From an uncultured bacterium (GTDB lineage Bacteria; Patescibacteriota; Gracilibacteria; Absconditabacterales; Absconditicoccaceae): a DNA stretch of 54,466 bases. The notes under the pieces were generated by a model. The model ran no database searches, was not told where the DNA came from, and was given only the letters and a program-made list of their open reading frames with translations. Shown here in pieces: positions 2,320-54,466 of the stretch. Position 1 is the stretch's first letter, and every line of letters starts with the position of its first letter. The translations under genes and the position numbers were made by a program. The stretch spans positions 1-54,466 of the forward strand of contig CALMTC010000019.1 in assembly GCA_937872535.1 (NCBI GenBank). Direction: 5' to 3'.

Positions 2320-2823
2320 ATGATACTTACATGATCCAAAATCATAGAAGAGGTTCAAAATAAGAATATTATTCTTGAACCATTTGATATTTCTCAGATA
2401 AATCCCAATAGTTATAATTATAGACTGGGAAATAGATTGAGAAAGTTTGATTACATAGACAATGAAAAACATTTTTTTTTCGAAGAAGAAATTCCAGAAA
2501 CATGATACAAATTGGTTCCACATCAACTATATCTTGCTGCAACCTTTGAAACAATTGGTTCTTCAAAATATATGATTTCACTTATTGGAAGAAGTTCAAT
2601 GGGAAGATTATGACTATTCCTTCAATTATCAGCCAATATTGGACACACAGGCACTTGCCATAAATGGACATTAGAACTGGTCTCTACTAAACCATTTATT
2701 ATCTATCCATATATGAAGATAGGCCAGGTTTCGTTTTGGGTAAATCAATGAGAAGTTATTCATTATGATGGACTCTATAATAAGTTTGATAATCCACAAG
2801 AATCTTTACTTTCACTTCACTAA
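2320..2823 (+). CDS. dCTP deaminase / dUTPase-fold protein, paralogue 1
   Basis: 167 residues, close to the usual Dcd length. It begins MILTGSKI as Dcd proteins do and has GRSSMGRLGL at residues 90-99, the phosphate-binding motif of this fold. WTLEL at 116-120 retains the glutamate (E119) that aligns with the catalytic Glu of dCTP deaminases. The conserved Asp of the family motif (usually I-D-P-G) is replaced by His109. Its neighbour is a second, differently altered paralogue 4 bp downstream. Known members deaminate dCTP to dUTP or hydrolyse dUTP; here the substrate could be another nucleotide made in the operon. Confidence 0.78.
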
Positions 2824-2827
2824 TACA

Positions 2828-3361
2828 ATGATTCTCACTGGCAAACAAATTTTGCATGAAGTTTCTGCTGGAAGAATAACAATTAGTCCCTTTAACTCAG
2901 CTCACATTTCAACAAATTCCTATGATTTAACATTGGGCAATACTTTTATTAGATATACAGATGAAGTTATAGATCCCCAAAAAGATAATCATTATGAGAC
3001 AATTATAGCTTCGCGCGAAAGTCCAATTTTCATGGACAAAGGTGACTTTCTTTTATGATCAAGTTTAGAAAAAATTTGAAGTTCTTCTTATGTACCGATA
3101 ATTCATAATAAGTCTTCTATTGCCAGAATGTGATTATTTGTTCACATAACTGCTGATTTAATTGATATCGGTTCAATTTGAACTACTACCTTTCAACTCT
3201 ATGCCACCTTACCAATCACACTTTATCCTGGAATGCTTTTATGACAAGTTTCATTTTGGAAAACACATTGAGATATTAAGCTTTATGAGTGAAAATATCA
3301 GAATAGTAATGGTCCCGTTGCATCTAGAACATTTATAGACTTTCATAATAAATATGAATAA
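2828..3361 (+). CDS. dCTP deaminase-fold protein, paralogue 2, catalytic Glu replaced
   Basis: 177 residues, same family as the preceding gene (MILTGKQI start, SSIARMGLFVHITAD, LYPGMLLGQVSFW). The conserved Asp is kept (D113), but the position of the catalytic Glu is Gln123 (TFQL) and the GRSS motif has become NKSS (94-97). It probably cannot deaminate on its own. It may act as a partner subunit in a mixed trimer, or as a nucleotide-binding protein. ATG 2828 is chosen because it aligns with the paralogue's start. The last codons overlap the next gene's ATG by 8 bp, suggesting translational coupling. Confidence 0.75.
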
Positions 3362-8930: not shown

Positions 8931-9051
8931 TGATAGAAAGCCATTTTAGAGCAAAAATTTTTCGTATTTCTTTGTAATCATCTCTCACAGAAGTAATTTG
9001 TGAGGTTTTTTTAATTGTAAAAACCCATACAATCCGTATAGATTTTTTGTT

Positions 9052-9204
9052 GCCTTCGGAAGCAATTAAAAAACAACCCGTCTCCATGAGACTTAAGATT
9101 TTTCGTAAAGGATAAAGTTGGACGTATAGCCCGACCGACTATCCTTTGTGAAAAATCGGGTTGTTGCTTCCGAAGGCGCATTTACGGGTTATGCGTCCTT
9201 TTTT
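9052..9204 (+). ncRNA. Element A: long hairpin with loop-to-3' pseudoknot ending in a T run
   Basis: The outer stem of 14 bp (9052-9065 with 9164-9177) is perfect. A second helix pairs 9073-9080 with 9157-9164, and an inner hairpin exposes loop GGACGTATAGCCCG (9120-9133). That loop pairs over 14 positions, with two G-U, to CGGGTTATGCGTCC (9185-9198), immediately followed by TTTTTT. The same architecture with different bases occurs at 15306-15474 and on the - strand at 38743-38902. It could be a terminator-based regulatory RNA, an attachment or packaging site, or an origin. It lies 36 bp before a secreted-protein gene. Confidence 0.7.
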
Positions 9205-9240: not shown

Positions 9241-9708
9241 ATGAAAAAATCTACCTTGGTTACAATTATTGCTTTTACTACATTATTTTTAGTTTCTCAG
9301 TGGTCTGGTACTGCATTTGCAAGTGATGAAATTATAGTTTCTTATCAAGTTAATGAACAAGATCAGAAAATCGTTATTGCCATTACCAAAGCAGTAGAGA
9401 AATTGATAGCAAAAAAAGGCGAAAGTAAACGTTCTAGCTATATTTCTCAGCTCAGCACGATTAGTGAAGCTTATAAAGAAAATATCAGGATTCATATGAT
9501 ACTTTCAGAGGTCATTAAAGCTATCTCGCCAGTCATTGAAGAGCCAGCTATCGTCCCATCAACAAATAATAACGAAATAGAAGAAGACATTACAGAAACT
9601 GATACTGATTTTGATGCTAACACATACTATACAGGTCCGAGATGAGGATGCTATTACTACAATAATAATTGAAATAAAACTTATGTAGATAGCTCATATT
9701 GTAACTAA
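9241..9708 (+). CDS. Secreted protein with C-terminal GPRGGCYYYNNNGNKTYVD motif
   Basis: 155 residues. A Sec signal peptide (MKK, then hydrophobic residues, cleavage near TAFA-SDE) is followed by a helical region. An acidic Thr/Asn-rich linker then leads to a C-terminal motif, TGPRGGCYYYNNNGNKTYVD. That short motif is known from phage, plasmid and large-virus proteins (PBCV-type basic adaptor-like repeats). I take ATG 9241 because it starts the signal peptide; the in-frame extension upstream lies inside element A. Its counterpart after element B is at 15519. Confidence 0.65.
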
Positions 9709-10845: not shown

Positions 10846-11139
10846 ATGCCAAAAGAGGTAAATGAGAATAGCTTATTGAAATTATTATTAGAATAAATAC
10901 TTTTACATTATCCTCACAGAGGATTTTCTACAAGTCATCCTTCAAATCAAAATGAAAGAAGGATTATTGGGCATATAAATGGACACTTCACAGGCAAGAT
11001 CTCTATTGTGAGAACTAGCCTCTTGAATGAATGATGAAGAACTTGATACCTTTATTATTGAATGCAAGAGAATATCCTCAATTATTATGGATTTTGCTGA
11101 AAAGGAGGCTCAAGAGTAGCCTCTTTTTTCATTATTTAA
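10846..11139 (+). pseudogene. Interrupted short ORF before recombinase 1
   Basis: A frame opening at ATG 10846 encodes 16 residues, meets TAA at 10894, and then stays open for 80 codons to TAA 11137. The downstream part contains five TGA codons readable as Gly and no ATG until late. It may be a decayed gene or not coding at all. A terminator hairpin lies in its last codons. Confidence 0.25.
11104..11129 (+). terminator. Terminator upstream of recombinase 1
   Basis: GGAGGCT pairs with AGCCTCT around a short loop and is followed by TTTTTT. It separates the recombinase gene (ATG 11155) from whatever is transcribed upstream. Confidence 0.65.
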
Positions 11140-11154
11140 TATCAATAAGACAAA

Positions 11155-12816
11155 ATGAGATTAACAGCTGAAAATGCGATAATTTATTGTAGGGTTTCAT
11201 CAAAATGACAGCTAGAATGATGATGACTCAACAGCCAAGAGGTTGCTTGTAGACAATACTGCGAAAGAAATTGATATAGTGTTATCAATGTTTTTCAGGA
11301 TGCTTTTACTGGATGAGACTTAGATAGACCCTGATTGAATAAGCTTTTTGAGTTCATCGATGTTACCAATAAGGAGAATCCAGACAAACCAGTGAATGTA
11401 TTTGTTGTTGATGATATTAGTAGAATTGCAAGAGATTATCAGGTTCATCTCGAACTTACCAAATGACTTGTGAAAAGATGAGTAAAGTATGAGACAGTAA
11501 ACATGAAATTTGAAGATACACCAGCAGGAAAAATGATTGAGTGAATTATGGCTATTTACTCTGAATATTTCAGGAGAAACAACCAACACCAAGTCATCAA
11601 TAGACAAGAAGCAAGGTTACTTGATTGATACCGACCACGAGACTATCCCTTGTGATACAAAACAGAAAAAGCACCAGTAGGATGAAAAATACTTGTACAG
11701 GATGAACCAAACGCAAGCATAATCCAAGAAGCTTTGCTCTGATATGCGAATTGATTACTCAATAGCGTCAAAGAAGTTGCTCATTTCTTAGAGAAAAAGG
11801 GACTAGATTTGAGAAGATACAAGAAAAAAAGAAAAGACACAACCAAAGTACATACCTCACTTGCTCAAAGAATTTTGACAAATATTCTTTATGCTGGCTA
11901 TATTGAATACAAAAGAATCACAAGAGACAAAGACTGAATAGTGAAAAAACAACGAGATGTTTCATTGAGAAAATGAAAGCATGAATGATTGATAGACTTA
12001 GAAACATATCAGAAAATACAAGAAAAACTACTCTGAAAAAGACCCTACACACATGAAACAAAAATCATCAATGATGAATACCCTTTGAGATGATTTATTA
12101 TTTGTGGATGTTGTGAATTGTTGTTTACTTCTGGAAAATCAAGGAGCAGAAATTGAAAACAAATACCATATTATCAGTTCAATAAAAAGTGTATTCACTC
12201 AGGAAAATCTATCCAAGCAGTAAAACTCCACACAGCGATGAATGAAGAGTTGCAAAAGCTATGAATCGACAAACAGTTCTTAGGATTTATGAAAATATTG
12301 ATTTCCCAAGAGTACGAGCAAAGAAAACAAGATAAAAAGCTTAGTACAAAAAATATCCAGAAAGACATTGATAAATCACAAGGAGAAATTGATAATCTTC
12401 TCAACTCTCTTGCAAGCTCCAGCTCTTCTATCGTACAAAAGAAAATAGAGCAAAAAATTGAAGAGTGTGAACTGAAGAGATTAAAACTTACAGAACAGTT
12501 GAAACAGATTGAAACAAGTATAGAAATAACAAAAGTGTTGGATTTGGCATTTGAAATACTCTCAAATCCTTACTACATACGAAAGAATTGAACCATAGAC
12601 CAGAAACAAATGTTATTGAGACTTTTGTTCAGTAAAAAAATTCCAATCGATTTCTCGACGGGAACTTACTGAACACTACCATTTAGTAGTTTATTCCTAC
12701 ATACTAAAGATATTTGAGAACACAATTACAGTCATCTGGAGACAATCGGAGCCTATTTGAACACTTACACCATAATGTGTTATGAAAAGCCAACTTTATG
12801 TATATTTCCCAACTAA
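11155..12816 (+). CDS. Large serine recombinase 1
   Basis: 553 residues. The resolvase domain is at 1-150: AIIYCRVSS has the catalytic Ser, and VFVVDDISRIARD and IMAIYSEYFRR are helix and catalytic-pocket motifs. The recombinase domain is about 165-300 (PLGYKTEK). A zinc-ribbon-like segment (FIICGCCELLFTSGKS then KKCIHSG) and a long C-terminal coiled coil at about 380-480 follow. Such enzymes integrate and excise phages and genomic islands. It sits at the right end of a unit that carries the TerS-like gene, element A and secreted proteins, so it probably mobilises that unit. Confidence 0.9.
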
Positions 12817-12955: not shown

Positions 12956-14122
12956 TTACTGTTTTCATTTACTATTCAAGAAATCAGATATAAATCATAA
13001 CTTCTCTAAAGTATGCATAATTCATCTCAACAAGTAATTATTTACAAAGTTAATAGTATAAATCCTTCCCTTAGGGGTTATAGAACTAACTATTCCCTTC
13101 TTTCTTAGCTGTGCTATGGTACGAGATTTTTGTACCGAATTATTTATTCAAAATTTATTCAGCTCCTCTGCTTTGATTGTCATATCTTTAGAATTAATAA
13201 GATAGCTCAATATTTTATGTTCTTTATCTGTTATATGTTCCCTCTCTAGGGCAAAATCTATTGTGGGTATTAAAATATTACTTCTTACATATGTTCATTG
13301 GAGTAAACTATCGATTTTTTCAATCTCATTCTTCAGTCAAAGCAAGAAATATTCACACCAACTTAAAATATCATTATCTTTTAACGAATCTGCTTTTGCT
13401 AACATATCATAGTATTTTTGCCTGTTAGAGTAAAATATTGCTGAAGAATTTATAATTCTTCATTTTTTTACTTGGAATCACATTTTTATTAAGAAAGCAT
13501 ATGTAAGCACTCTTCACATTCTACCATTACCATTATCAAATGGATGAATATAGGCAAAACGATGATGAGCTATAGCCACCATTAATAGTTGATATTGTTC
13601 TCTGTGAGAAGAATTAGTGAATTTAACAAATTCATCGAAATAATCTTGCACAACCTTAAAATCAGGTGGAGTATGCTTCGACCCTGTAATAGTTACATTC
13701 ACTTTTCTTAAATCTCAAGGATTTTTTGACCCCTCTACCGAGAGGTTTTCTGTAATAATCATATGTAATTGTGAAATATAGGCACGATCTATTGCGGTTC
13801 TTTCTAATGTATTATCCTCAATAAAGCTCATTGCTTTTTCTATATTTTGGATTTCCTGGTTTTTTTCTTCTTCAGATAGTTTTTTTTCAATAATTTTTTC
13901 TACATATTCAGCTAATGTCGTATTATTTCCCTCTATTCTGGCAGATCCTAAAGTTTCCATAATATGAAATATCTCTTTTAATTGAAAAAAAATATAGGGA
14001 GGAACGGTTCCTGATAACTGCTTAGACCTCAACTTTTCCAAGTCTAAAATAATATTGGCAAGATCACTTCCCCACAAAGGATCTGGAATTTTTATTTGAT
14101 TGTTCATATCACTACTTATCAT
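12956..14122 (-). CDS. Fic-domain protein (AMPylase-type) with N-terminal inhibitory helix
   Basis: 388 residues. The active-site motif HPFDNGNGRMGR spans residues 193-204; Gly203 is TGA-coded, so in the standard code the protein would end just before the final Arg. The N-terminal motif SARIEGN (60-66) fits the Fic inhibitory helix (S/T-x3-E-G/N), here in cis. The C-terminal 110 residues look like a winged helix (TDKEHKILSYLINSKDMTIKAEELNKF). Fic proteins transfer AMP or other groups to Ser/Thr/Tyr. This class is common as single genes in genomic islands. It faces three 89-bp repeats upstream of its start. Confidence 0.85.
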
Positions 14123-14135
14123 TAAGTAAAACTTT

Positions 14136-14402
14136 ACTTATCAATAGCATACATAAAACACCCTTATTTATCAACACTTTCTCCCATATTTCTCTTCAAC
14201 TTACTTATCATTGTCCAAAACATTACTTATCAGTAAGACATATAAAACACCCTTATTTATCAACACTTTCTTCCATATTTCTCTTCAACTTACTTATCAT
14301 TGTCCAAAACATTACTTATCAGCAAGACACATAAAACACCCTTATTTATCAATGTTTTCTCTCACATTTCTCTTCAACTTACTTATCATTATCCAAAATA
14401 TT
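14136..14402. repeat. Three tandem 89-bp repeats upstream of the Fic gene
   Basis: Units start at 14136, 14225 and 14314, each exactly 89 bp, with a fourth partial copy (ACTTATC) at 14403. Each unit contains several ACTTATC/TTTATC words (GATAAGT on the other strand), like clustered binding sites. Copies differ at a few bases, mostly in the third. There are no spacers, so this is not CRISPR. Likely roles are a promoter or operator array for the Fic gene, or iterons. Confidence 0.9.
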
Positions 14403-14483
14403 ACTTATCTATAAAATCTCCATTAAGCTACATACATAAGTAATACTTAAAATTTAACCTAAAAGATATTGAAGACTCAACTC

Positions 14484-15267: not shown

Positions 15268-15305
15268 AGGGTTGAAAAAATAGCAGGAATCATTACCTTT
15301 AAATT

Positions 15306-15474
15306 GCCTCGCAGGCAATTCATAAACCACAATTCGAAAGTAGTGCATCTGATGCACAATGTTTTTGTAGCGAACAAAGTAGGAGGTATAGCCGACCGAA
15401 CTGTTTGCTGCAAAGCTCTTTTCGGGTTGTGGTTTGCTTGCGAGGCACCCATTTACGGCTATGCCTCCTTTTTT
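15306..15474 (+). ncRNA. Element B: second copy of the hairpin/pseudoknot element
   Basis: Stems pair 15306-15313 with 15439-15446 and 15324-15332 with 15427-15435. An inner hairpin presents loop GGAGGTATAGCCG (15382-15394). This pairs over 13 positions with CGGCTATGCCTCC (15456-15468), followed by TTTTTT. Compared with element A, the loop bases changed from GGACG to GGAGG and from CCCG to GCCG, and the 3' strand changed to match. The outer stem sequence is also different but still paired. An extra hairpin GTGCATC/GATGCAC is inserted. It lies 44 bp before the ATG at 15519. Confidence 0.72.
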
Positions 15475-15518: not shown

Positions 15519-16511
15519 ATGAAAAAAATCATTGTTTTATTCGTTTGTTTTTTGGTTGTCTCTGTAGGCTATGCTATGGACTACAAACCAACAAGTAGCG
15601 ATCAAAAGATGGTAACTAACTTTGGCTCACAACTAGAAATCTTGGTAAAGTCTGACCTTGAAAGAGCAAGGACAATTAGTCAGAAGGTCAAAACGCTTGT
15701 CTTGAGCTTGAAGCCCTGAACTAAAAATCACTGGATCATCTCTTTGATTGGATCAAAACTTGATGAGCTTATTGCTAAGAAAGACTCAGAAATTGATCTG
15801 AGTGGTGGCTTTGATGCTTTGTCGTGACTTACCAAGGTTTATCAAGCAATTAAATTTGATAAGTTTATTACTGCGTATGAAAAGGCTGTTGTATCAAACG
15901 CCGATTACCAAGTTTTGTGAGTGGTCTGGTTTGATAAAACCAATATTAAGACTAAGGATCTTTCAAAGATATTGGAAGGCGTCGGTGATAAGAAACCATA
16001 TTTTTATATCAAGCTGTGAAGCGGGTCAATTATACCTGTTGTATGAAAAGCTGTCAGTCCTTTCGTCACTATGCAAGAACAGACTTCCTATAGTATTTTC
16101 AAAGTACCAAAGAACAGCATCGATACGGCACAACTTTTTATAACGGACAAGATAACTTGTTCGGTTGATGCAAAATACTGTGAGTGAACTTTTGTCGCGA
16201 ATTTAAAAGATATTCCTCTCATAAGCTACTCATCTTCAGAGCAGACCAAACGAGAAGCATCAGAGGCGGGGCAAATTTGCAAACAGAACTCTTGGATTTT
16301 CTCTATGTATGATTGCAATAAGACTGCTGATAGAGATGCTTTTGAATGAATGAGTAAAACTCTCTTTAATCATTTTGAGAGTGATTATGATTTAGAAATA
16401 AGTGATAGCAATGTTGGTGCTCATTACTGTAAAGAAACTAATCTTGGTAAAGAGTGCCTATGGATCAGCGACCGTAAAGTGAACTCCATCACAAACCTCT
16501 ACTACAAATAA
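15519..16511 (+). CDS. Secreted protein, 330 aa, after element B
   Basis: A Sec signal peptide (MKKIIVLFVCFLVVSVGYAM, cleavage near GYA-MD) precedes a soluble domain with several Cys in its C-terminal third (ITCSVDAKYCEGTF, QICKQNS, YDCNKTAD). No family is recognised. Its place directly after element B mirrors the secreted protein after element A. The extracellular location suggests a surface or host-interaction cargo of the mobile unit. It contains seven TGA-coded Gly. Confidence 0.6.
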
Positions 16512-18954: not shown

Positions 18955-19135
18955 AAAAAAACCTCAGATCAGAAAGAAATGATCCCGCACCGATGCGGTG
19001 GTTTTTAGGATGGTAAAATCAAAAGAGAAGCCTACATCCCTCTATCCTATTTGAGAAGCAATCCACGGACTTATTAAAATAATTGGACTCGATAACATTA
19101 AAAAGTTCGATACCCCAGACAATCAGAACACATAG
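18941..19135 (+). CDS. Small basic protein, 64 aa, before recombinase 2
   Basis: Starts in the inverted repeat and ends at TAG 19133. Basic N-terminus (FTPKKPQIRKKGSRTD), then a helical part IGEAIHGLIKIIGLDNIKKFDT. It overlaps a GC-rich hairpin (CCGCACCGATGCGG near 18984). It could be a small DNA-binding accessory of recombinase 2, but there is no firm homology. Confidence 0.35.
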
Positions 19136-19202
19136 ACATATTGTTCGACCTACAACCACGACTCGTATTACTTCTTGAAAATGATCGAACATTTTATTAT
19201 AT

Positions 19203-20933
19203 ATGGGATACTTTACCCATAATATTCCTTCTATGACAGAATTAAGCGATCAATATGTCATTTATTGTAGAAAATCGACAGATGAAAGCTCAGGACAACA
19301 AACCCAATCAATACCTGATCAAATTAAAAGCTGTATGGAATATGCTAAAGCAAATAACTTACAAATAGCCCTCAAACCTGATGATTTTCCTTTTGAAACT
19401 CAGGTAGATATTGCAAAGGAAGATGCAGAGGCTGATATTTATATTAGGAGAATATACCAAGATACAAGAAAGTATTACATTATCAAAGAGCAAAAATCTG
19501 CCAAATTACCGTGAGTCAGACCCAAACGAAAGCTACTTATGAGTCTTATAAAAAAGTGAAAAATCAAAGGACTTTTAAGTTACGCTCCTGACAGACAAGC
19601 TAGAAATATGCTAGAAGGGTGAGAAATCATTGATTGTGTTGATCAAGGACTTGTAAACTTAAAATATAATAATTTTCAGTTTGAAAATACACCTTCTGGG
19701 AAAATGATGCTTGGAATATGGCTTGTGTTTTCCAAGCAATACTCTGATAATTTATGAAGCCTCATTCATAGGGGGAAAAGCACAGGTGTATCGAGGTGAA
19801 AATCCCAAGGGAACTATAAGTATTGATATACAAGAGATGAGATCACTGGATACTTCAAACCGCATCCTGAGTATTTTTCGTTAATGAAGGAAGCCTTTAG
19901 AATGAAAGTTTATGATAATAAAAGTGATGAATATATCGCATCTCGGTTGAATAGTCACGGGTTTTTGAGAAAAACGAAAAAAACATCGAAGGAGGTTAAC
20001 CGAAAAAGATTGACTGAGGTTTGGAGAGATCCCTTTTATTATGGAATCTATATAAGCTGAAATAATAGAGTAAACCTCCTCGAGATAGATACTCCTTTCG
20101 AACCTCTTATCTCTGAAACTGAATATAATGTACTCCTCTATAGGTACACTGGCTGAGATACTACACTACATCCAAAATACATAAAAGATGATAATGAAGA
20201 GCTTTTACCTCTCCCTAGATGATTTCTCAGAGCTACTGATGGCACTGCATTAGCATTTTATATCACTAACAAGCATAGAGTTAATAAAAGACTCAAAGAA
20301 GCACAGAAAAAAGATCCCAATCTAACGCTCAAAGACATTGTCGGCTCACACGAGATCAGATTCAGAAATGCACATAAAGAATCTCCAACATACTGATACG
20401 ACATTTCTTTCAGCACTATAGAAAAGACAATCATAGAAATGCTCAACCAAACCAAAATTGACGATAAAGGCTATAATGAATATATAGAATATGTCGGAAA
20501 AATACTAGATAAACTCAATTTAGATAATAGAACCAAGATCAACAACTTAGAGTTTCAGATCGGGAACCTAACAAGCCAAAAAAAAGAGTACATTAAACTA
20601 TATATGTGAAAACTCACGCGTGAAGACGAACAAGAAATCTATTCTAACCAGCTTTTATCTTATGACACTAAGATAAAGTTGCTTGAAGAAGAAAGAAATA
20701 GCATCTCAACTAACGAAAGAGACACCATTGTGGAACTCTCCACATTGGTAAATTTCCTTAAAACCATAGGTCATCACTATGCTAATGTCTCCTATGTTCA
20801 AAAGAGAAAAATTACCGAGCTACTTTATTCGAACATTATAGTTGATAAAGAAAAAAGGCTTACTTTTGAGGTAAAACCCTTATTGGAACACTTATTTTCT
20901 AAAGAAATCTCATTCTTTGGAGATGAAGACTAA
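19203..20933 (+). CDS. Large serine recombinase 2
   Basis: 576 residues. The resolvase domain has YVIYCRKSTDESSGQQTQSI with the catalytic Ser near residue 23. An insertion of about 45 residues follows, then LLSYAPDRQARN and PSGKMMLGIWLVFSKQYSDN. The recombinase domain (GNYKYGYTRDE onward) is at about 200-300. A long C-terminal coiled coil ends the protein. It closes the second unit (TerS-like gene, element B, secreted protein). A short inverted repeat GTTCGA/TCGAAC flanks the upstream region at 19142-19193. Confidence 0.88.
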
Positions 20934-21101: not shown

Positions 21102-21126
21102 TCATTACTCTTAAAACCAGTAATGA
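21102..21126 (+). promoter_or_regulatory. Hairpin over the Rep1 start codon (possible nick or binding site)
   Basis: TCATTACT 21102-21109 and AGTAATGA 21119-21126 form an 8-bp perfect stem with a 9-nt loop; the Rep ATG lies in the right arm. TATAAT at 21085-21090 is about 35 nt upstream. The same hairpin covers the start of Rep2 at 29881. It could be an HUH nick-site hairpin or an autoregulatory mRNA structure. Confidence 0.55.
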
Positions 21127-29342: not shown

Positions 29343-29663
29343 AATTAATGAAATTTATATATTAAAATTAAAACCTATTCTATAATTTTCTTAACTTATG
29401 ATATAAATACTCCATTCAATATTTATACATAAAATCTAGATAAAGTAAATATACATAATATAATATAATATTTCAAGGATAAATTTAATTAAGCCAAACA
29501 AGATATAAATTATATGAAAAGATCCAGATTACTTCTTAAAGTCTCTTTAAATAACGCAAAATCATAAAACTAAGGTAGATATTAGCGAGATGATCCATGG
29601 AATACAAGCAAGTTTGAGGCAGAAACTTATGATTAAGGTAGCGTAAGATATTAAATGATTCTG
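29343..29663. other. AT-rich intergenic region before the Rep2 unit
   Basis: No gene. It is very AT-rich near 29450-29520 (repeated ATAATATAAT words). An inverted pair AATCATAA 29560-29567 / TTATGATT 29627-29634 and a direct pair TAAGGTAG at 29571-29578 and 29634-29641 are present. These could belong to the origin or end of the Rep-borne element. Confidence 0.4.
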
Positions 29664-29729
29664 TTTGTATTCTATTTGTATTCTATTTGTATTCTATTTG
29701 TATTCTATTTGCATTCTATTTGTATTCTA
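29664..29729 (+). repeat. Six tandem copies of TTTGTATTCTA
   Basis: Six perfect-length 11-bp units; the fifth has one change (TTTGCATTCTA). The array ends 2 bp before the ATG at 29732. It is open in one frame, so a TTG start inside it would yield a repeat peptide, but a regulatory or slipped-strand role is more likely. Confidence 0.92.
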
Positions 29730-29731
29730 TT

Positions 29732-29875
29732 ATGTCTCAAATTTACATAGATGATAAAACGATAAAAAGAGTTATTTTCATCAAATTTGATGTTGATTTC
29801 CCCATATCCTATGAACAATTTAGGTATAAAAATGAGTTTTTTGAGATTCGTAAACACTTGAGATATAATAATTAA
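29732..29875 (+). CDS. 47-aa ORF upstream of Rep2
   Basis: MSQIYIDDKTIKRV start, ends LRYNN, with its stop inside the block conserved before both Rep genes. Upstream of Rep1 the matching end reads FRYND but the rest differs, so the ORF is cut by the homology boundary. It may be a leader peptide or a chance ORF. Confidence 0.35.
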   Translation: MSQIYIDDKTIKRVIFIKFDVDFPISYEQFRYKNEFFEIRKHLRYNN

Positions 29876-33242: not shown

Positions 33243-35789
33243 TTATTCAAAAGCCTTTACTTTTTCAATCAGCTTTCTTTGTTCACTTGGTACTTTGGCA
33301 TCAAAAACAATCCTGTACTCAAAATTAGGATTATGCTTTTGAAACTCCATAAATCAGATTTCCTTTGCAAAAACATCGTCTACGATCTTGGTATCTCACT
33401 TTTCAAAGTATTCTTTGGCTTTTTCATAGTTAGCTTTTTTGTCTGAGCCTTTAATTTCCACAACCAAATATTTCTTTGATGAGTCAGGCTTTTCAATAGA
33501 GATTAAGAAATCAGGAAAGTATTTTTTGAACCTCCTTTGTTCTTCCTCGTAAATCTCGTATTGAAAGAAAAAGTCAGTATAGTTTTCATTACCTGTTCAA
33601 CCCGTGAAATAGACATCTTTTATTGCTTCATCATCACTAAGGGCTTTTTGAATATGTTTGAAAATCTCTAATTCGTCCGAACTGTCGAAGTTGTAGGGGT
33701 TGATATGAAATCATAACCTATTTTTATTATCCAAGCTTTCCTTGTAGCAAACAAGGTTTAAATGGTCTTTATCCACATCAAAAGTAAATGAGTTTGTTTC
33801 TACTTTAATCAGTTTTAGTTCTTCTTTTAAGCTCGTTTCTTTCTCTGTGTATTCATAATAATGTTTATAAATTTGATCGATAATGAAGAAAAGCTTTTTG
33901 TTGTCGTCAGATATTATTTGTTCGATTTGCTCTTTTTCATACCCAATGTTTTGAAAAATCTGCTTTATTGTAGTGAAATCGATATGAGTATATTTGTGAA
34001 TAACCCAAAGTATCTCATAGTAATTCATAACTCTATTCAAAAGCTTTGTTTCAATATTTTGTTGTCCCTTGTCTTTGTACTCTGTCCCAAGCTCTTTGGT
34101 ATGAATATAAATATCCTGAGGCTTATACTGCTCAAAGTTTATCTTGTAGCGAGAGAAATCTTTTTGCTGAGAGGCAATAATGGATTTTATGACTTTTTTG
34201 ACTGAGATTATTGCTCTCTTTTCGATCGTGCAAGGAATAGATTGTTTTTCTTTACTGGTACTATTCAAACCCTGTATATCGACTCAAAAATTAAGCTTCA
34301 ACTCACTATCAAGCATTTTGTAGTTTTCTTTGGATAGAAAAATGCTCGCCTTTTTATCATTTTTTCCAATTGATCTCAAACATCTGGTCGTTGCTTGGAG
34401 TGTAAAAATCTTTGGTGGTTTTCTATAAAGAGCAATTGCAAACAATGATTTACAATTTCGTCACTCAGTACCCTTATTTACTAAAAGAATGATCTGTTTT
34501 TGACTTTCTGGAGTATCCAAAAGCTGAAACTCTTTGAGTTCTTCATTGCTGACTTCTGAGTGATTTTCAATGACTTTGTTGCTTCCAATACCCATTTCTT
34601 TCAAAATCTCCTTTTCAAGCTTTTGTCTCACTTCTTTGAGTTCCTCTATGTTTGCCGTGTAAATAGCAATCTTTGGGAGTTTATTTTCAAATCTTTCTTC
34701 ACCGTATCTTTGCCAAAACTCACTAATAACAAGCGTAAGAAAATCGTCTGATTTGACCTCTCCAAACTCTATGATTTCTGCTTCTTTCAATATACCGTCT
34801 TGGATACCTTCTTTGAGTCAAAAGTAGTAAACAACATTTGAGATCATTTTACCTTCGACATATGGCGTCCCTGTCATATTGATACAATTTATCAGCGATT
34901 TGTTTTCGTGTATTCTATTGATAGCATCCTTAGTTTTTTTGATTTCTCACTCAAGAGTCATTCCGAAGCTATGATGAGCCTCATCGATAAAAACACTCAG
35001 ATTTTCTAATTTTTTGAGAGAAATAAGCCTTTGATTTTCTATTTCGTGCTGTTCTCTTGCCTTTGGGTCTCCCAAAAGACTATTTTTCAGATCTCATTGA
35101 TTACCTTTCCTCGTTTTTACGATGATCTTTTGAGAGTTGGTGACAATAACATTGTAAACACTCCCTTCGGAGACTGCTATGGTATGCTTTGTGTCTTCCA
35201 GATAATGATATTTGATTTGAAGCAAGGCGTTTTGATATTCTGGCGGTATAATGTTTCTTTCATCAAATGATTTGATCTCTTTGAGAGATTGTATGATGGT
35301 CTTGTCGGGTGCGAACACAAGAAAGTTTTTGGCAAAAAGAGGACTCTCAGGGTGGTAGTAGCTCAAAACAATATCATAGAGCATAAACGCCGTCATCAAA
35401 ACTGTCTTACCTGTCCCCATCGTCAAAGCATAGACTTGGTTGGTATAGTCATCATTACCAAAACTACTTCCTATTTTCTCAGCAATCTTCTTTCTTTTGT
35501 CTTGCTCTGAAAGCTCCATCAAATCCAGCACCTCGTCTGATGAATACTTAAGCTCTTTGATAAGTTCTTTAAAAGGCAGTATGTCAAAAACGATCTCATT
35601 CAAAGGTTTGTTTTTACAAACCTCTTTGAGGTATATATAGCTTTCTAAGGCTTCCTTTTGAGGTTGTCTCAGAAAGTTGACCTTGTGGATATACTTCAAA
35701 ATATTCGATGTTTCAGGATAAACACCTTCATATCATTGTTCTTTTCGGGCTTGTATTTTACTTTGGAGAGCATTGAGAAAAAATTGCAT
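33243..35789 (-). CDS. res: Type III restriction enzyme Res subunit (helicase-nuclease)
   Basis: 848 residues. Walker A MGTGKTVL near residue 97, DEAH box (VFIDEAHHS), NMTGTPYVEGK, then a second RecA domain with GRNCKSLFAIALYRKP and QATTRCLRSIG (motif VI). The C-terminus has FPDFLISIEKPDSSKKYLVVEIKG, the PD...ExK endonuclease site. In Type III systems Res and Mod together cut DNA after ATP-driven movement. Its mod partner is upstream in the same operon, separated by three small genes. Confidence 0.88.
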
Positions 35790-35815
35790 AGGTTTTGGTT
35801 TGGTTGATAAAAAAC

Positions 35816-36001
35816 TTAAAAATCCACAGCAAATGTTCACTTTTTAACTCAGGCTAACTTTTCCATTTTCGCTGTTTCCCTCTTCCTGTATGTTTCCATT
35901 GGATTTGCTATGATTTTGATTTCACCCGTTTCAATATTTGTATATTTTACCTTCTTTTCTGTGTCATCGACCCGTTCCCGTGTCCGTCATTTCTTTTCCA
36001 T
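35816..36001 (-). CDS. Small basic protein, 61 aa, in the R-M operon
   Basis: Starts at an ATG overlapping the stop of the previous gene (TAATG). Sequence KKVKYTNIETGEIKIIANPMETYRKRE looks like a short strand-pair domain. It lies 26 bp before res. No family recognised; it may be a linker or regulatory peptide of the operon. Confidence 0.45.
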
Positions 36002-36780: not shown

Positions 36781-38694
36781 TTATTTAACCTCTATATCAT
36801 AGGTTTCAAACAGCTCTTCACCCAAAATATCAATAATTTTGATTGCGAGGGTGAACTTTCCTTTCTTTGAATACTGCCAACTATAAGAACCTTTGACCGT
36901 TTCTTTTTTAGATGGATTATCGATAATCTCGGCATTGAATAACTTATCATCATAGTCAGCATCAATAGCTATGCTGTCTATAGTCTGCTTTCGATCTTCA
37001 ATGAGTGTTTTATCAGACTTCCCTTTGTTTTCTATTTCTAGCTTTTTAAGTAAAACTGGCGAAATAAAATCGTTTATAGAAATTGATAAATCTGATTTTT
37101 TTACTTCAATTTTACATTCCAAAACGGGTTTCTCTTTGAATATAATGCCTTCTTTTTCAATAAGTATATCTCTGACATTGATTGTACAACTGGTCGTGTT
37201 TTTCTTTCTGATATATGCTTCAATATCCAGCTCTTTTCCGCTACAAATAATATCAATATCGTAGTATTTCAAAGGGCTATTTGAGTAAATATAGTCATTC
37301 TGGTTAGTTTCCAAATGAGTCATAATATCGTCTATGTCTTTCTTTGAAAGAATGCGATTTGGATCAATGATTTTCACATACGATCAGGAATTTTTACCGT
37401 CAAAATAGCCTCTCACCGACTCTACACCATAACTTTCCATCAAAATTTCCTTATAAGTCGCAATACCTTCATCTTTGTTTTTAAAAAGATTGTATTCGTT
37501 TACATTGTATACCTTAAAGGCAAGCGGTGTAGTAAGAAATCATTTTTTCTCTTGTTCAGAAGATCAATCTATGTAATGAAATGGATTTCAATCAGGCAGA
37601 ATTGATCATAAAATATTTGTATGGTCTTTTGGATCTGGAATATGCACATTAGCAAAATGAAGTGTCCTACGCTTGGAAACCTCAGCACGATCTTTGATTT
37701 GTTTTTCAATAATAGTATTTAACCTGCTAATAGTTGTATTGATTGCACCTGTATTGATGTCACAACCTATCCACTTACGACCAAGTTTTTGAGCAACTGC
37801 AATTGTTGTGCCACTTCCCATAAAACAATCCATTACAAGGTCTCAAGGATTTGACGAAGCACTAATAATTCTTTCAAGCAATTTTTCAGGTTTCTGAGTT
37901 GGGTAATCCATCTTCTCAGAGCTTGTCGATGCAATAAATGGTATATCCCAAACATCAGTTGCTTTTTTATCGTATGACATCTCATAGATAATATTACCGT
38001 GTTCATCTCTTGCTCTCATATTTTTACCATCTCTCCCTTCTCTTAGACTTTGTTTTACTGGTGTTTCACGAATTATTTTTATAGTATTAAACTCAATGCT
38101 ACTCGTCTTCTTATAAAAAAGGATTGTATCATAAGATTTTGGAAAAGACTGAGAAGAAGCACTCATCTTATTGGTATAGTTCCAAATAATTTCATTTACA
38201 AAGTTTTCTTCACCAAAAATTTCATCCATAATACATCTCAAATGATGATTTTTATGCCAATCGCAGTGTAAATATATCGATCAATTTTCTGTCAATAATT
38301 CTCTCAGCAATAAAAGCCTTTCATACATAAATTGTAAGTATTCATCTTTTCATCGAATATCGCTATATTGAGCCTCTTCAAAAAGGTTTTGTTCTTTTCC
38401 TGCTAGCTCTTTTCATCTGAATTTTATCGTTTTGACATAGTCAGCTTTACTATCAAAAGGCGGATCTATGTATATGAGATTTACTTTTCATCTATATTCT
38501 TTGAGTAAGTGAGAAAGCACCTGAAAGTTATCTCACCAAAAAATCTTGTTGAACTCTTGGCTTTCTTTGTCTCCATACACCTCTTTTTCTTGAGATGGGT
38601 AGTAATCTATATGAAGTTGGGCGGTTTTACCATCCCAATTGAGCATTGGGCGTCCTTTGGCTTTGATGAGATTTTTTTCAGTTTTTTCTGACAT
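36781..38694 (-). CDS. mod: Type III modification methyltransferase Mod (beta-class N6-adenine)
   Basis: 637 residues. YIDPPFDSKADYV is the DPP[F/Y] catalytic motif IV near residue 75. DCFMGSGTTIAVAQKLGRKWIGCDI near residue 290 is the SAM-binding motif I. The order IV before I is the beta class used by Type III Mod proteins. The C-terminal 200 residues (from VKIIDPNRILSKKD) form a separate strand-rich domain, read through by a TGA-coded Gly. It heads the six-gene operon that includes res. Element C lies 49 bp upstream. Confidence 0.88.
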
Positions 38695-38742
38695 AACAAA
38701 AAAGTGCTTATGGAGTAAAGCACCGTTGGTATGAGTCTATAC

Positions 38743-38902
38743 ACAAAAGAGACGCATTACCGGCGGGGCTACCCCACAAATTGGATTTTTAAAGTCACAA
38801 CCGTGAGCCCGACGATAACACGCCTCAGCTTGTAAGTTATGACTTTAAATAACCCAAAAATGAGCTATTGGTTTTTTCCAATTTATTTTTTTGTGGGGTA
38901 GC
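38743..38902 (-). ncRNA. Element C: third copy of the hairpin/pseudoknot element
   Basis: On the - strand. The outer stem GCTACCCCACAAA / TTTGTGGGGTAGC (38890-38902 with 38768-38780) is perfect over 13 bp, and AAAGTCA/TGACTTT forms an inner stem. The apical loop GAGGCGTGTTATCG (38813-38826) pairs over 14 positions, using G-U, with CGGTAATGCGTCTC (38749-38762). This is followed by TTTT. Primary sequence differs from A and B almost everywhere, yet the helix plan is the same. It precedes mod by 49 bp. Confidence 0.65.
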
Positions 38903-38935
38903 AAATTCAGTATAAATTTACTCCCTAAAATTACA

Positions 38936-39043
38936 ATGAAATATTTGGAAAATGGGATTGTTTATTGAGAGAATATGGCTATATTTAAGACAAATAAAGC
39001 CAACATAAGAGCGATGAGCGTTTTACAATACCTACAATTCTAG
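38936..39043 (+). CDS. Possible 35-aa ORF
   Basis: MKYLENGIVYGEN start, one TGA-coded Gly, TAG stop 2 bp before the KilA-N gene. Too short to judge; it could be a leader peptide. Confidence 0.25.
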
Positions 39044-41148: not shown

Positions 41149-42888
41149 ATGAGAGATAGCAAGAAAAAAGCGAACAACCTCAGATATGACTTACAAACTA
41201 AAAGTCTTGTTTTTGATAAAAAACCAGAAAAGCAAAAGAATAACTGACAGAAAAAAGCAATCATCTATACGAGGGTTTCGACTGAAGAACAAAAAATAAA
41301 GTGAAACGGAATCAATGCACAAATGCAAGATTGCGAAAGATGGGCTAAAGACAATAATATTCAAATTATAGGTTATTATAAAGATGAAGCAGAACCGTGA
41401 AAGAACCTTTGAAGAAAATGATTTATAGAGGCCATTTCTTTTTTAGAAAAAGAAAATAAGAAGTGAGTAAAAGTAGACTTTTTTATTTGTTGAAGCACCT
41501 CAAGGTTTTCCAGAAATCACAATGTAGGAAAAAGTTTTGATATGGTTGGAAGAGTTGAAGCGACCTGAGCAAAGCTAGTGGCTGTTGGTAATGGTTGAAT
41601 CCAAGAAACAGATTCTGAAGAGTGACTTATAAGTTTGACACTTAATTTTATGGTAGATGCCCTAGAAAGTAAAAGGTGACAGAAAAGAGTAAGAAATTGA
41701 CAAAAAGCAAAAGTATATGAATGACTGCGACCTTTCCCTGATGTTCCACTATGATATGAAAGAATTATCGAAAAGGTTTGATGAAAAGAAATAAAAATAC
41801 TTATACAAAAAGACCCTCAAGCCAGCATTATTCGTGAATGACTGGAATTATTTGCAGAATGAGTCCTTCTTACAAAACAACAGCTCCATAATTTTTTCGA
41901 TGAAAGATGACTCAAATCCAACAGTAAAAAGAATAAAACAGGCAAGCTTCACGAAAGTATTATTGATAGAATTCTTGATATACGAAAACTCTATGTTTAT
42001 GCTGGCTATATCACCTATCCTGATCGAGGTATAAACGAACTCGTGCCAGCAAAACATCAACCTCTTATAAACTTAGAAATAGTTGATAAGATTATGAGAA
42101 GACTTTATAAGGATTGAGACATTACAAATCATAAAAAAAGAGCCTATGACGAAGATGCTTCAGAGTATCCTCTAAAAAGAATTTTGCTGTGTCCAAAGTG
42201 CGATAAAGCCGTCACTAAATGGAAATCTAAATCAAAAACCTGAGATTATCATCACTATTATGGTTGTAATACTAAATGATGTTCTTTGTTTAAAAAAGGA
42301 CTGCCTAGAGAAAGCGTCCACGAAGCAGTAAGAGAAAAATTAAGATCAATTTCCCCTCCAGCTTCAGCGTTAGTATTATTTGAAAAAATCTTCTTAGAAG
42401 AACGAAAACAGGCAGAAAAAGACATTGATGTTATCAACAAAGAAAGGAGAAACAAAATAAGACTTATAAAAGATGAGATGGATAGAATAGAGGCTATGCT
42501 CGATAACATAACTAACAATCAATTATTTGAAAAAAAACAACAAAGACGAGCTGACCTTAATCAAGAAAAGGAGAACTTAGAGTATGCGATTGAAGACATC
42601 AGATTTACACAGAATGAGTTTGTAAGTACCTTTAATGAAGCAAAAACAGTCATTGGCAATCCTCTTGTTATATGGGATTTACAAGATACTGAGTTAAAGC
42701 AGTTATTAATTAGAGTGTGCTTCAACAATAAAATTTACTATACAAAAAATCAAGGATTGCACACCCCTGAAATCTCAGTTATTTATTTATCTTTGGGCGA
42801 TTTATCATCTGATAAAACCCCTAATCTGGAGATGACGGGAGTCGAACCCGTGTCTAAAAGACAGAAGAAGAATGGTCTACCACAATAG
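41149..42888 (+). CDS. Large serine recombinase 3, its end running into ssrA
   Basis: 579 residues. Resolvase domain from about residue 42: AIIYTRVSTEEQ with the catalytic Ser, VDFFICGSTSRFSRN, and a Gly-rich QETDSEEGLISLTLNFMVDALES. The recombinase domain follows (PFPDVPLGYERI), then a zinc ribbon (LLCPKCDKAVTKWKSK, YGCNTKGC) and a coiled coil at about 410-490. The last 20 codons (from 42827) are antisense to the 3' end of tmRNA. Such overlap is what integration at the ssrA 3' end leaves behind. Confidence 0.88.
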
Positions 42889-43290: not shown

Positions 43291-43394
43291 TCATCATTGC
43301 GAGGAGGTTTCCGACGAAACCTGCCTGCGGTAGGCAAGCAATCCATCCCACTAGCTTTTCAGATGGATTGCTTCATTTTATTCGCAATAACGAG
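43291..43394. repeat. Palindromic intergenic repeat, copy 1
   Basis: An inner perfect 12-bp inverted repeat AAGCAATCCATC (43336-43347) / GATGGATTGCTT (43362-43373) sits inside weaker outer arms ATTGCGAGG / TTCGCAATAACG. The same plan recurs at 45014-45102. From 43395 to 43565 there is no gene, only an AT-rich stretch. Confidence 0.75.
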
Positions 43395-43565
43395 CTTAGC
43401 TGCACCACTTTTTCCCTCCCCGAACGAGCAGAACACTTTAAAAAACCAGAATAAAAATTTTTTTGTCAATGATTTTTGGTTCGGGAAAGTCCGTTTTTTT
43501 GTGTGAAAATATTTTTTCGATAGTATGGAGAAGTTAGATAGCGTTTTATTTGATTTGGAGAGATA

Positions 43566-44246
43566 ATGGATCAAAGAAATAGAGATTTATTGATTGATAT
43601 AAGAGATTTTACGCGATGATATCCTCATTCGCCGAAGTTGTTGTTTAGAAATTTCAATTTCAAACTCTATAAACATGAATTCTGTGTGCTCATGGGGAAG
43701 TCAGGATCTGGAAAATCAACACTGATTCAATTTCTGATCAGAAAGCTCAAACCGCATCCTAAGACTATCTATATCAATAATGAAGATGTTTCTAGTTTCT
43801 CAATAGACGAAATTCAGTCTCATAGACAAAAAATCGGCATCGTCTTTCAAGATTATCAACTCATACCTACAAAAACTGTAGCTGAAAATATTATTTATCC
43901 TCTGGAGCTGAAGTGATTGAGTGAAAAAGTCATCAAACAGCGTCTCGAAGAAATTCTTATTCTGATGGGACTTCACGACAAAAGAGATGAAAAAATTTCA
44001 TTCCTGAGCTGAGGAGAAAAGCAAAAAGTTTCTATCGGTAGAGCTATTATTTGAAGACCAGACTATATTATCGCTGATGAACCTACAGGAAACTTGGATC
44101 GAGCTGCGACCACTTCCATAGCTGATGTTCTCATTGAACTCAACCAAAAATGACACACTATTCTCTTGATTACTCACGATCCCATGCTCCTAGAATATAT
44201 CAATAGCAAACAACCAACGATCTCTCATACTATGCCAACTTTTTAA
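43566..44246 (+). CDS. FtsE/LolD-like ABC transporter ATPase
   Basis: 226 residues. Walker A GKSGSGKST near residue 41, Q-loop GIVFQDYQLIP, signature LSGGEKQK (the first Gly at 44010 is TGA), Walker B DYIIADEPTGNLD and H-loop LITHD. Size and motif set fit FtsE, LolD or MacB-type ATPases, which work with FtsX-like permeases in cell division or export. No permease is adjacent; two small genes follow in the same direction, the first after 19 bp. Confidence 0.85.
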
Positions 44247-44265
44247 TCGATTTATCTAGGAAAAA

Positions 44266-44514
44266 ATGACAGAACAAAAACTTTCTTCTCTTCTCAAAAC
44301 TCAAATCTTGGATCAAGTAGAAGAGCTAGATATTCCTGGTTATATGATGGATGAGACCAAAGACATTGTCAGACACCTCAATTACTACAAGCTCAAAAAT
44401 CTCTTTGATAATATGGATGACTTCAAAACTTTTTTACTGGAACTCGATCATCACAACACTCAACAAATAAAAACTTTACTTCTCAACCATTTGAAGCTAT
44501 GACAACTCAAGTAA
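44266..44514 (+). CDS. Small acidic helical protein, 82 aa
   Basis: MTEQKLSSLLKTQILDQVEE onward, nearly all helix, with one TGA-coded Gly three codons before the true stop. It overlaps the next gene by 16 bp. Family unknown. Confidence 0.55.
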
Positions 44515-44774
44515 AATCAAAAATCACTGCTCAACATACTGTCGCCAAATCGGATGAGAAAAAGACTAAGTGCTACTATATTTCTCAGAGATGAAAAGAA
44601 GAACTTGGTGACTTATTGAGCATGAAATTCCCAAATCATCTTATGCAAAGTATCAAACAAATCGCCGAGGCAATCAAAGGGATTTTTCTTTTCAAGTCGA
44701 ATGAATATGTGATGGGCAATAAAACAAGGCTAGAAGTTTCTCGTTCTCTCAATAAAAAAACTTATAAAAAATAA
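44499..44774 (+). CDS. Small basic protein, 91 aa
   Basis: Basic, with YYISQRGKEELGDLLSMKFPNHLMQSIKQIAEAIKGIF in the middle, which could be an HTH-like helical pair. Translationally coupled to the 82-aa protein, whose charge is opposite. The two may bind each other. Function unknown. Confidence 0.55.
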
Positions 44775-44796
44775 TTTTCTGCAAAACCTCCCCTTC

Positions 44797-45171
44797 CCCT
44801 CCTTCCATAAGGAGGGCATTAGCTCTATAGCATTCCTCCTTTATCGAAAGGAGGTGCCAGCGGGTGGAGGATTTCTCAACTAAAAAAGTGTTGTCCTGAT
44901 GTGGCAACTTTTTTTATGAAAAATTTTCTTCTGCTTTTAGAACAGAATCACCCCTGCCCCCTCTTTAATAAAGAGGGGTATAATAGAAAAAATCCCCATT
45001 GAGGGATTTCTTTCGTCATTGCGAATGAAATGAAGCAATCCACCTGAAAAACTAAATAGCATGGATTGCCATATCGTCGCAAAGCTCCTCCTCGCAATGA
45101 CGGTAACGGAGAGGTCTTCGACTTCCCTTCGACAAGCTCAGAGAACTGCAGTATTCACCAGAAATTAAAAA
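44797..45171. repeat. Cluster of short palindromic repeats
   Basis: No gene here. Perfect hairpins: CCCTCCTT/AAGGAGGG (44797-44816), CCTCCTTT/AAAGGAGG (44835-44854), CCCCTCTTT/AAAGAGGGG (44958-44978). A second copy of the GCAATCCA repeat follows (outer arms CGTCATTGCGA 45014-45024 / TCGCAATGACG 45092-45102; inner 45035-45042 / 45062-45069). Then comes CTTCGACAAGCTCAG, a short word seen between genes in many bacteria. Confidence 0.75.
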
Positions 45172-54172: not shown

Positions 54173-54235
54173 TCTGGTACACTAGACTAGTATAAAGAGA
54201 CAAAGCTATAAGGATTTTTAATTTTTTCTATAAGT

Positions 54236-54466
54236 TAGAATGGTGGTCTATCCCCACGTTCCCGTAGGGATACCTTGTTACGACTTCACCCCAGTCATTG
54301 AACCCCTCCTTAACCCGCATGGCGGATCTTTAGAGAGTGTCAACTCCCATGGTGTGACGGGCGGTGAGTGCAAGGAACAGGGACATATTCACGGTGACAT
54401 GGCTGATTCACCATTACTAGCAATTCCGACTTCATGTAGTCGAGTTGCAGACTACAATCTGAACTG
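54236..54466 (-). rRNA. rrs: 16S rRNA, 3' part
   Basis: Reading from the right edge on the - strand: GAATTGCTAGTAAT, CACCGCCCGTCACACCATGGGAG and GACTGGGGTGAAGTCGTAAC are diagnostic of helices 28, 44 and the 3' minor domain. Helix 45 is TATCCCTACGGGAACGTGGGGATA. The tail then reads GACCACCATTCTA where most bacteria have GATCACCTCCTTA; the 3' end is set by that alignment. Helix 44 is slightly shorter than in E. coli. The gene continues beyond the window. Confidence 0.95.

Follow-up and report, generated by a model that had tools for sequence, protein, structure and literature searches.

A structured RNA family with a long-range pseudoknot, likely a cis-acting leader, on probable integrative elements of Gracilibacteria-type bacteria

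An RNA element in which the apical region of a long hairpin pairs with a strand beyond the 3' end of that hairpin recurs ahead of genes carried on what are likely integrative elements of candidate-phyla bacteria. Twelve such elements were recognized in 10 genomes, three of them in the 54,466-nucleotide stretch of DNA analyzed here (the window) and nine in relatives. They very likely represent a real structured RNA family, and each is likely to act in cis as a leader controlling the gene behind it, a function inferred from sequence alone. That the terminator stem of a switch is formed by the long-range helix itself is a narrower proposition, toward which the evidence leans only slightly.

All 12 elements share a long 5' hairpin (helices P1 and P3), an apical strand B, a 3' strand B', and a U-rich tail, with a connector of 3–11 nt between the hairpin and B' and a B:B' helix of 10–16 bp. 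In each window copy, read on the strand that leads into the next gene, the parts follow one another as the P1 5' strand, a side hairpin, the P3 5' strand, an A-rich segment, and B, and then as the P3 3' strand, the P1 3' strand, a connector of 5–9 nt, B', and a tract of four to six T residues (Table 1). The side hairpin produces a three-way junction in all three, and the RNA folding z-scores are -7.7, -6.8, and -6.1 for copies 1, 2, and 3. An earlier note had described three copies of a hairpin whose apical loop is complementary to a 3' segment running into a T tract, each 36–49 bp before a gene; the copies, the complementarity (3/3, with T4–T6), and the spacing all held, the position 38743 given there for the third copy being the 3' end of a minus-strand element. 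Its account of the apical loop required refinement, in that the minimum-energy fold is not simply open and a small hairpin, P4, overlaps the pairing segment.

Table 1. Positions in the window of the three element copies, the genes behind them, and the recombinase and Rep_1 genes
Feature	Position	Strand	Detail
Copy 1 promoter-like site	9015..9042	+	TTGTAA - 16 nt - TATAGA; 5-7 nt before hairpin
Copy 1 promoter-like site, alternative register	within 9015..9042	+	TTGTAA-18-TAGATT
Copy 1 whole element	9052..9204	+
Copy 1 P1 5' strand	9052..9065	+	partner 9164-9177
Copy 1 P2 5' strand and side hairpin	9073..9092	+	ACAACCC pairs with 9158-9164
Copy 1 side hairpin, three-way junction	within 9073..9092	+	GTCTC-CAT-GAGAC
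Copy 1 P3 5' strand	9097..9114	+	partner 9140-9157
Copy 1 strand B, apical region	9120..9133	+	GGACGTATAGCCCG
Copy 1 hairpin 3' half	9140..9177	+	P3' 9140-9157, P2' 9158-9164, P1' 9164-9177
Copy 1 strand B'	9185..9198	+	CGGGTTATGCGTCC, complement of B
Copy 1 T6 tract	9199..9204	+	immediately 3' of B'
Gene behind copy 1	9241..9708	+	ATG at 9241; 155 aa, N-terminal signal-like sequence, no Pfam family (code 25)
Copy 2 promoter-like site	15272..15299	+	TTGAAA - 16 nt - TACCTT
Copy 2 whole element	15306..15474	+	P1 15306-15318/15434-15446; P3 present
Copy 2 side hairpin	within 15306..15474	+	GTGCAT-CTG-ATGCAC
Copy 2 strand B	15382..15394	+	GGAGGTATAGCCG
Copy 2 strand B'	15456..15468	+	CGGCTATGCCTCC; T6 15469-15474
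Gene behind copy 2	15519..16511	+	ATG at 15519; 330-aa secreted-type protein
Copy 3 promoter-like site	38909..38936	-	TTGTAA - 16 nt - TATACT
Copy 3 whole element	38745..38902	-	P1 38902-38890/38780-38768
Copy 3 side hairpin	within 38745..38902	-	ATTGG-AAAAAA-CCAAT
Copy 3 strand B	38826-38813	-	GAGGCGTGTTATCG
Copy 3 strand B'	38762-38749	-	CGGTAATGCGTCTC; T4 38748-38745
Copy 3 separate intrinsic terminator	38698..38723	-	GTGCTT..AAGCAC TTTTTT; 3 nt before ATG
Gene behind copy 3	36781..38694	-	ATG at 38694; N6/N4 DNA methylase (Mod-like, PF01555)
Restriction-type gene accompanying the copy 3 methylase	33243..35840
Large serine recombinase genes	11155-12816, 19083-20933, 41149-42888
Rep_1 genes, rolling-circle type	at 21123 and 29890

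The window corresponds to a single contig from a genome of 1.25 Mb in which TGA is read as glycine; code 25 alone opens long reading frames in it, with recognizable products such as a phenylalanine-tRNA synthetase-like protein. Its island carries three large serine recombinases, which are divergent from one another, and two Rep_1 genes that are 89% identical and 8.8 kb apart, together with a methylase, a restriction-type gene, KilA-N, Fic, and glycosyltransferases. At its 3' end the tmRNA gene overlaps with the third recombinase. Because of this gene content and of the recombinase at the tmRNA 3' end, the RNA elements of the window probably reside on integrative elements, and the region 9000–42888 is likely a stack of them ending at the tmRNA 3' end. 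A direct repeat at the tmRNA end that would bound the island was looked for and not found.

Other features of the same sequence were recorded in passing. Three 89-bp repeats, 85–90% alike, lie in tandem around the start of the Fic-domain gene (14113–14414), and 11-bp tandem repeats (ATTCTATTTGT; 29658–29734), possibly iterons, immediately precede the second Rep_1 gene. Two neighboring dCTP deaminase-like genes have overlapping open frames (2320–3361), and an inverted repeat (42 nt, 90%; 43352–45054) surrounds 1.6 kb containing an ABC-transporter gene, possibly a small mobile unit. The 16S rRNA gene (54200–54260, minus strand) has the 3' end ...GGGGATAGACCACCATTCTAAC, without a CCUCC anti-Shine-Dalgarno motif.

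How readily such an arrangement arises by chance was gauged with a crossing scan written for the purpose, which scores a hairpin, an apical region pairing with a 3' strand, and a T run. In its final form the three window copies score 102, 98, and 86, against maxima of 71 elsewhere in the genome (1.22 Mb, both strands) and 68 in dinucleotide shuffles (1.17 Mb); with the T requirement relaxed, background rises to 75. By this whole-genome scan the window's three are the only copies in the genome, all within one island. Applied to stretches of up to 20 kb around the recombinases and Rep_1 genes of relatives, the scan returned the same architecture at nine loci (L123, L124, L125, L126, L127, L132, L135, L178, and L200), the last from a different family of the class in which TGA is a stop codon and the recombinase gene has no in-frame TGA. 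Two of these, L135 (71) and L126 (72), score within the background range and thus rest on other features, namely promoter, ORF, and carrier. Two candidates were rejected: a locus neighboring a DNA methylase (L146), where high scores came from a bidirectional inverted repeat readable on both strands, and a tandem repeat at +3427 of L126. At 10981–11298 of the latter locus a tRNA-like segment repeats with a period of 99 bp up to the contig end.

A confounding issue for the distant copies is that the scan that found them demands pairing, so that their pairing is not independent evidence. Two are partly independent of it, and B:B' pairs in both. L125 was initially noticed on visual reading of the sequence ahead of a methylase gene, whose product shares 72% identity with the copy 3 methylase; in this element ~36 nt of the 5' arm are duplicated in tandem, and one copy alone pairs with the 3' arm. 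L178 was also found (45.5 bits, E 1.7e-9) by R1, a nested covariance model built from copies 1 and 2 without the B:B' pairs. Across 49 family genomes R1 matched only its own two source copies, and two extra weak matches obtained with laxer filters were rejected, the architecture being absent. As R1 does find L178 when given the locus, genome-wide model searching is insensitive here. No match was obtained with DNA patterns of the element in viral contig and genome contig collections, with copy 1 against phages or copy 2 against plasmids by blastn, or with Rep_1 and recombinase queries against the viral contig collection.

Covariation supports both of the crossing helices in the sequences that can be aligned. 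In alignment A8, a plain MAFFT alignment of the window copies and L178 with non-homologous inserts shortened by hand, the two longest stems from a blind search were B:B', with 14 columns, and P3, with 13. Paired cells make up 93.5%, and 15 of 27 pairs, in both crossing helices, show change on both sides; none of 500 shuffles reached as high, and slid controls were 37–52% paired. In a second subfamily (subfamily II; L124, L125, and L127) the three longest stems are B:B', P3, and P4, all 100% paired, with one compensatory change in P4. Covariation within this subfamily alone is weak, as 19 of 500 shuffles reach the observed value and three sequences offer little power. Between subfamilies little sequence is common other than a strand rich in A on the 5' side of B and, at the start of B itself, a GGRCG-like motif (A7, A8). 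The earlier note's claim of a covarying pseudoknot thus held, with nine more homologues and compensatory changes in both crossing helices, and the test by which it could have been refuted, a lack of further homologues with compensatory changes, was run and passed.

The energetics point in the same direction, with reservations. The sense-strand hairpin is more stable than its antisense counterpart in 12 of 12 elements, and B:B' adds 3.6–16.7 kcal/mol to the best nested fold, pseudoknot penalty not included. G·U pairs outnumber A·C appositions in B:B' by 32 to 2, a biased count; because the scan scoring favors G·U over A·C, the strand bias of distant copies is not independent evidence. Geometry is the main worry for a full B:B' helix: the rod of P1–P3 must bend to allow it, as the short connector cannot span a straight rod. 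The side hairpin, found in seven copies (the remainder have bulges or internal loops only), is possibly where the rod could bend in those seven.

The placement of promoters and genes, neither used by the scan, ties the element to the sequence on either side of it. A promoter-like hexamer pair, mostly TTGAAA, TTGTAA, or TTGACA with a spacer of 16–18 nt, ends 3–6 nt before P1, which places the inferred transcription start at about the first base of P1. Summed over the elements, the sigma-70-type promoter score comes to 133; shuffles average 108, and none of 300 is as high. Individually, the sites are convincing in ~8 of 12; those of L123, L125, L127, and L132 are unconvincing. An ORF begins 7–74 nt 3' of B' on the same strand in every element, and in L200, where the ATG is 7 nt from B', no promoter fits between the two. 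Eight copies have a strong T tract directly after B' and, before the ATG, nothing further like a strong terminator. L124, L125, and L127 have a weak tail after B' (TTATTCTAA and similar), and these three and copy 3 carry a separate intrinsic terminator directly before the ATG, so that B:B' is not always the sole terminator. As one form or the other, U tract or separate terminator, lies ahead of the ORF in 12 of 12 elements, a polymerase that initiates at the promoter has a terminator to pass. A promoter upstream and a terminator before the ORF are what an attenuator leader calls for, and both are present, although this is an inference without expression data.

At six loci (L123, L126, L127, L132, L135, and L200) a tRNA or tmRNA gene has its 3' end overlapped or abutted by the recombinase gene, as is usual for serine-recombinase islands. 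L178 shows a 15-nt repeat, one copy at the 3' end of a tRNA and the other ~12.2 kb away, which brackets both RNA and recombinase. The RNA element lies 1–11 kb 5' of the recombinase, inside the integrative element. Carriage on serine-recombinase integrative elements, mostly at tRNA or tmRNA 3' ends, is therefore likely. Rep_1 genes are present in the window, L125, L127, and L135 and were not seen in the fetched stretches of L123, L126, and L132.

The genes behind the elements are varied. DNA methylases follow copy 3, L125, and L127; signal-peptide proteins follow copies 1 and 2 and L135, and membrane proteins L123, L124, L132, and L178 (both by eye); a zinc-ribbon-like protein follows L126, and one with a C-terminal hydrophobic segment L200. 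The N-terminal region of the protein behind copy 2 is weakly similar to the gene product behind copy 1. With no function common to the cargo, a gate belonging to the mobile element is a better fit than a metabolic riboswitch. Nor was a conserved ligand-binding pocket, as a metabolite riboswitch should possess, seen in alignments A7 and A8.

A mechanism can be proposed from the relationship between P4 and B'. In L125, L126, L127, L132, and copy 3, B comprises the P4 5' strand and the P4 loop, and the P4 3' strand is similar in sequence to the 3' half of B' (CGTCCTC versus CGTCCTT in L127, for example); P4 is weak in copies 1 and 2, L123, and L135. Where B forms a P4 hairpin with such a 3' strand, as in several copies, P4 and B:B' would be mutually exclusive. 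In the model, transcription begins at the first base of P1, and the element forms the 5' leader. P1 and P3 would fold in the nascent RNA, often with the side hairpin, exposing B apically while partly holding it in P4. As B' emerges from RNA polymerase, its 5' half would base-pair in the P4 loop while its 3' half displaced the P4 3' strand, and the resulting 10–16-bp B:B' helix beside the U tract would serve as the stem of an intrinsic terminator, closed by a pseudoknot. Most transcripts would end there as a short RNA of ~110–170 nt; were P4 kept closed, or the apical region bound, polymerase would read through into the cargo gene for a methylase or a secreted or membrane protein. In copies with weak U tracts the choice between B:B' and P4 would instead govern the second terminator, immediately ahead of the start codon. 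Inference covers transcription and termination as well as the switch and its signal, and a terminator-stem role for B:B' is given only a modest preference over its negation. Sequestration of a Shine-Dalgarno sequence by B', which resembles CCUCC, was considered and dropped, as the purine strand is B and the 16S 3' end has no CCUCC.

Other readings of the same architecture must be weighed against a cis-acting leader. The element might be the gene of a trans-acting small RNA, a promoter-RNA-terminator unit of its own with the gene behind it read only by leaky read-through. The promoter-like site at P1 and the U tract do delimit a discrete unit of 110–170 nt, and sequence differences between copies are expected if their targets differ; a co-directional ORF so closely behind every element, only 7 nt away in L200, nevertheless argues against this, as does the second terminator directly before the ATG in four copies, pointless for a small RNA that has already ended, and this reading is considered unlikely. 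Less probable still is a cis-acting antitermination signal like put of phage HK022, by which the RNA alters polymerase to pass a terminator before the cargo. An ordinary terminator does lie between element and gene in copy 3, L124, L125, and L127, and the element starts at +1, as put sites do; however, the eight copies in which B' enters a U tract without a strong second terminator fit B:B' as the terminator, and antitermination is judged very unlikely.

Also very improbable is an attenuator under antisense-RNA control, of the pT181 or IncI repZ type, in which a counter-transcript binding the apical loop would set B:B'. The topology is that of the repZ pseudoknot, and many carriers have rolling-circle Rep_1 genes, but a consensus scan detected no sign of an antisense promoter (summed score 122, shuffle mean 124; 171 of 200 shuffles at least as high), and the genes behind are cargo rather than rep. 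A site acting as DNA, whether an origin, single-strand origin, or transfer, packaging, or recombination site, is suggested by residence on integrative elements, some with rolling-circle Rep genes, and by the co-occurrence in the window of three elements and three serine recombinases. Against it stand the strand bias in pair stability, the promoter at P1, the constant co-directional gene start, the failure to see Rep_1 in the fetched stretches of several carriers, and recombinases that abut tRNA or tmRNA ends instead, so that this too is very unlikely. Among the functions that the earlier note had left open, attachment site is not supported: such a site would lie at the ends of the integrated element and have a short shared crossover core, but where ends can be placed, recombinases abut tRNA or tmRNA 3' ends with the RNA well inside, and the 15-nt repeat of L178 is far from the RNA. 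A packaging or origin role is not needed and not strictly excluded, promoter, strand bias, and gene placement arguing against it. The terminator-type cis-regulatory RNA is favored, by the promoter at the base of P1, the co-directional ORF, and the terminator before the start codon.

Comparison with known systems indicates where novelty may lie. No Rfam 15 family matches the element at gathering score, and an E-value-mode search with copy 1 gave nothing near it; Rfam recognizes only SSU rRNA and tmRNA in the window and only tRNA and tmRNA at the loci of seven other elements. Neither such an RNA nor regulatory RNAs on mobile elements of these bacteria were found in the full-text literature searched, which included few subscription journals and no preprints. 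Attenuators and terminator riboswitches share the succession of promoter, structured leader, U-tract terminator, and start codon, and, as inferred by sequence in several copies, the alternative pairing of one strand, but here the putative terminator stem is a long-range pseudoknot of apical loop and 3' tail, no aptamer is conserved, and the element is spread over unrelated mobile-element cargo genes. The repZ leader of IncI/IncB plasmids (the Inc RNA system) likewise has a long hairpin whose apical loop pairs just upstream of the gene. That pairing comprises few base pairs and acts on rep-gene translation under antisense control, whereas the element has a far longer pairing beside a U tract, cargo genes, and no antisense promoter signal. 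SAM-II and preQ1 riboswitches have the same A-B-A'-B' H-type topology in a leader; the element differs in its far longer helices, the absence of a conserved ligand core, and the lack of an Rfam match. The put RNA of HK022 is also a structured RNA from promoter +1 on a mobile element, and is an antiterminator not known to have a pseudoknot with a U tract. ToxIN-type (type III) antitoxin RNAs pair a pseudoknot RNA with a terminator upstream of a gene, but the element has no tandem repeats and no toxin gene behind it. Attenuating leaders are thus well known as a kind; what would be new, again by inference from sequence alone, is the pseudoknot as terminator stem and the mobile-element setting.

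A bolder reading goes further, to a new class of RNA in which the intrinsic terminator is a pseudoknot made by toehold strand exchange, the 3' strand invading the apical hairpin, and which serves as a portable gate of candidate-phyla integrative elements, keeping cargo silent until a factor from the element or the host blocks the exchange. Taken as a whole, this reading is tentative, and the balance tips slightly against it.

Gracilibacteria-type candidate-phyla bacteria are scarcely accessible to experiment. The element, being compact and self-contained, could be assayed directly with purified RNA polymerase without culture of the host. The proposed mechanism suggests that a long-range pseudoknot can build intrinsic termination, a switch geometry beyond standard nested covariance models. 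If true, this would be, as far as searched, the first structured regulatory RNA described for the mobile elements of these bacteria.
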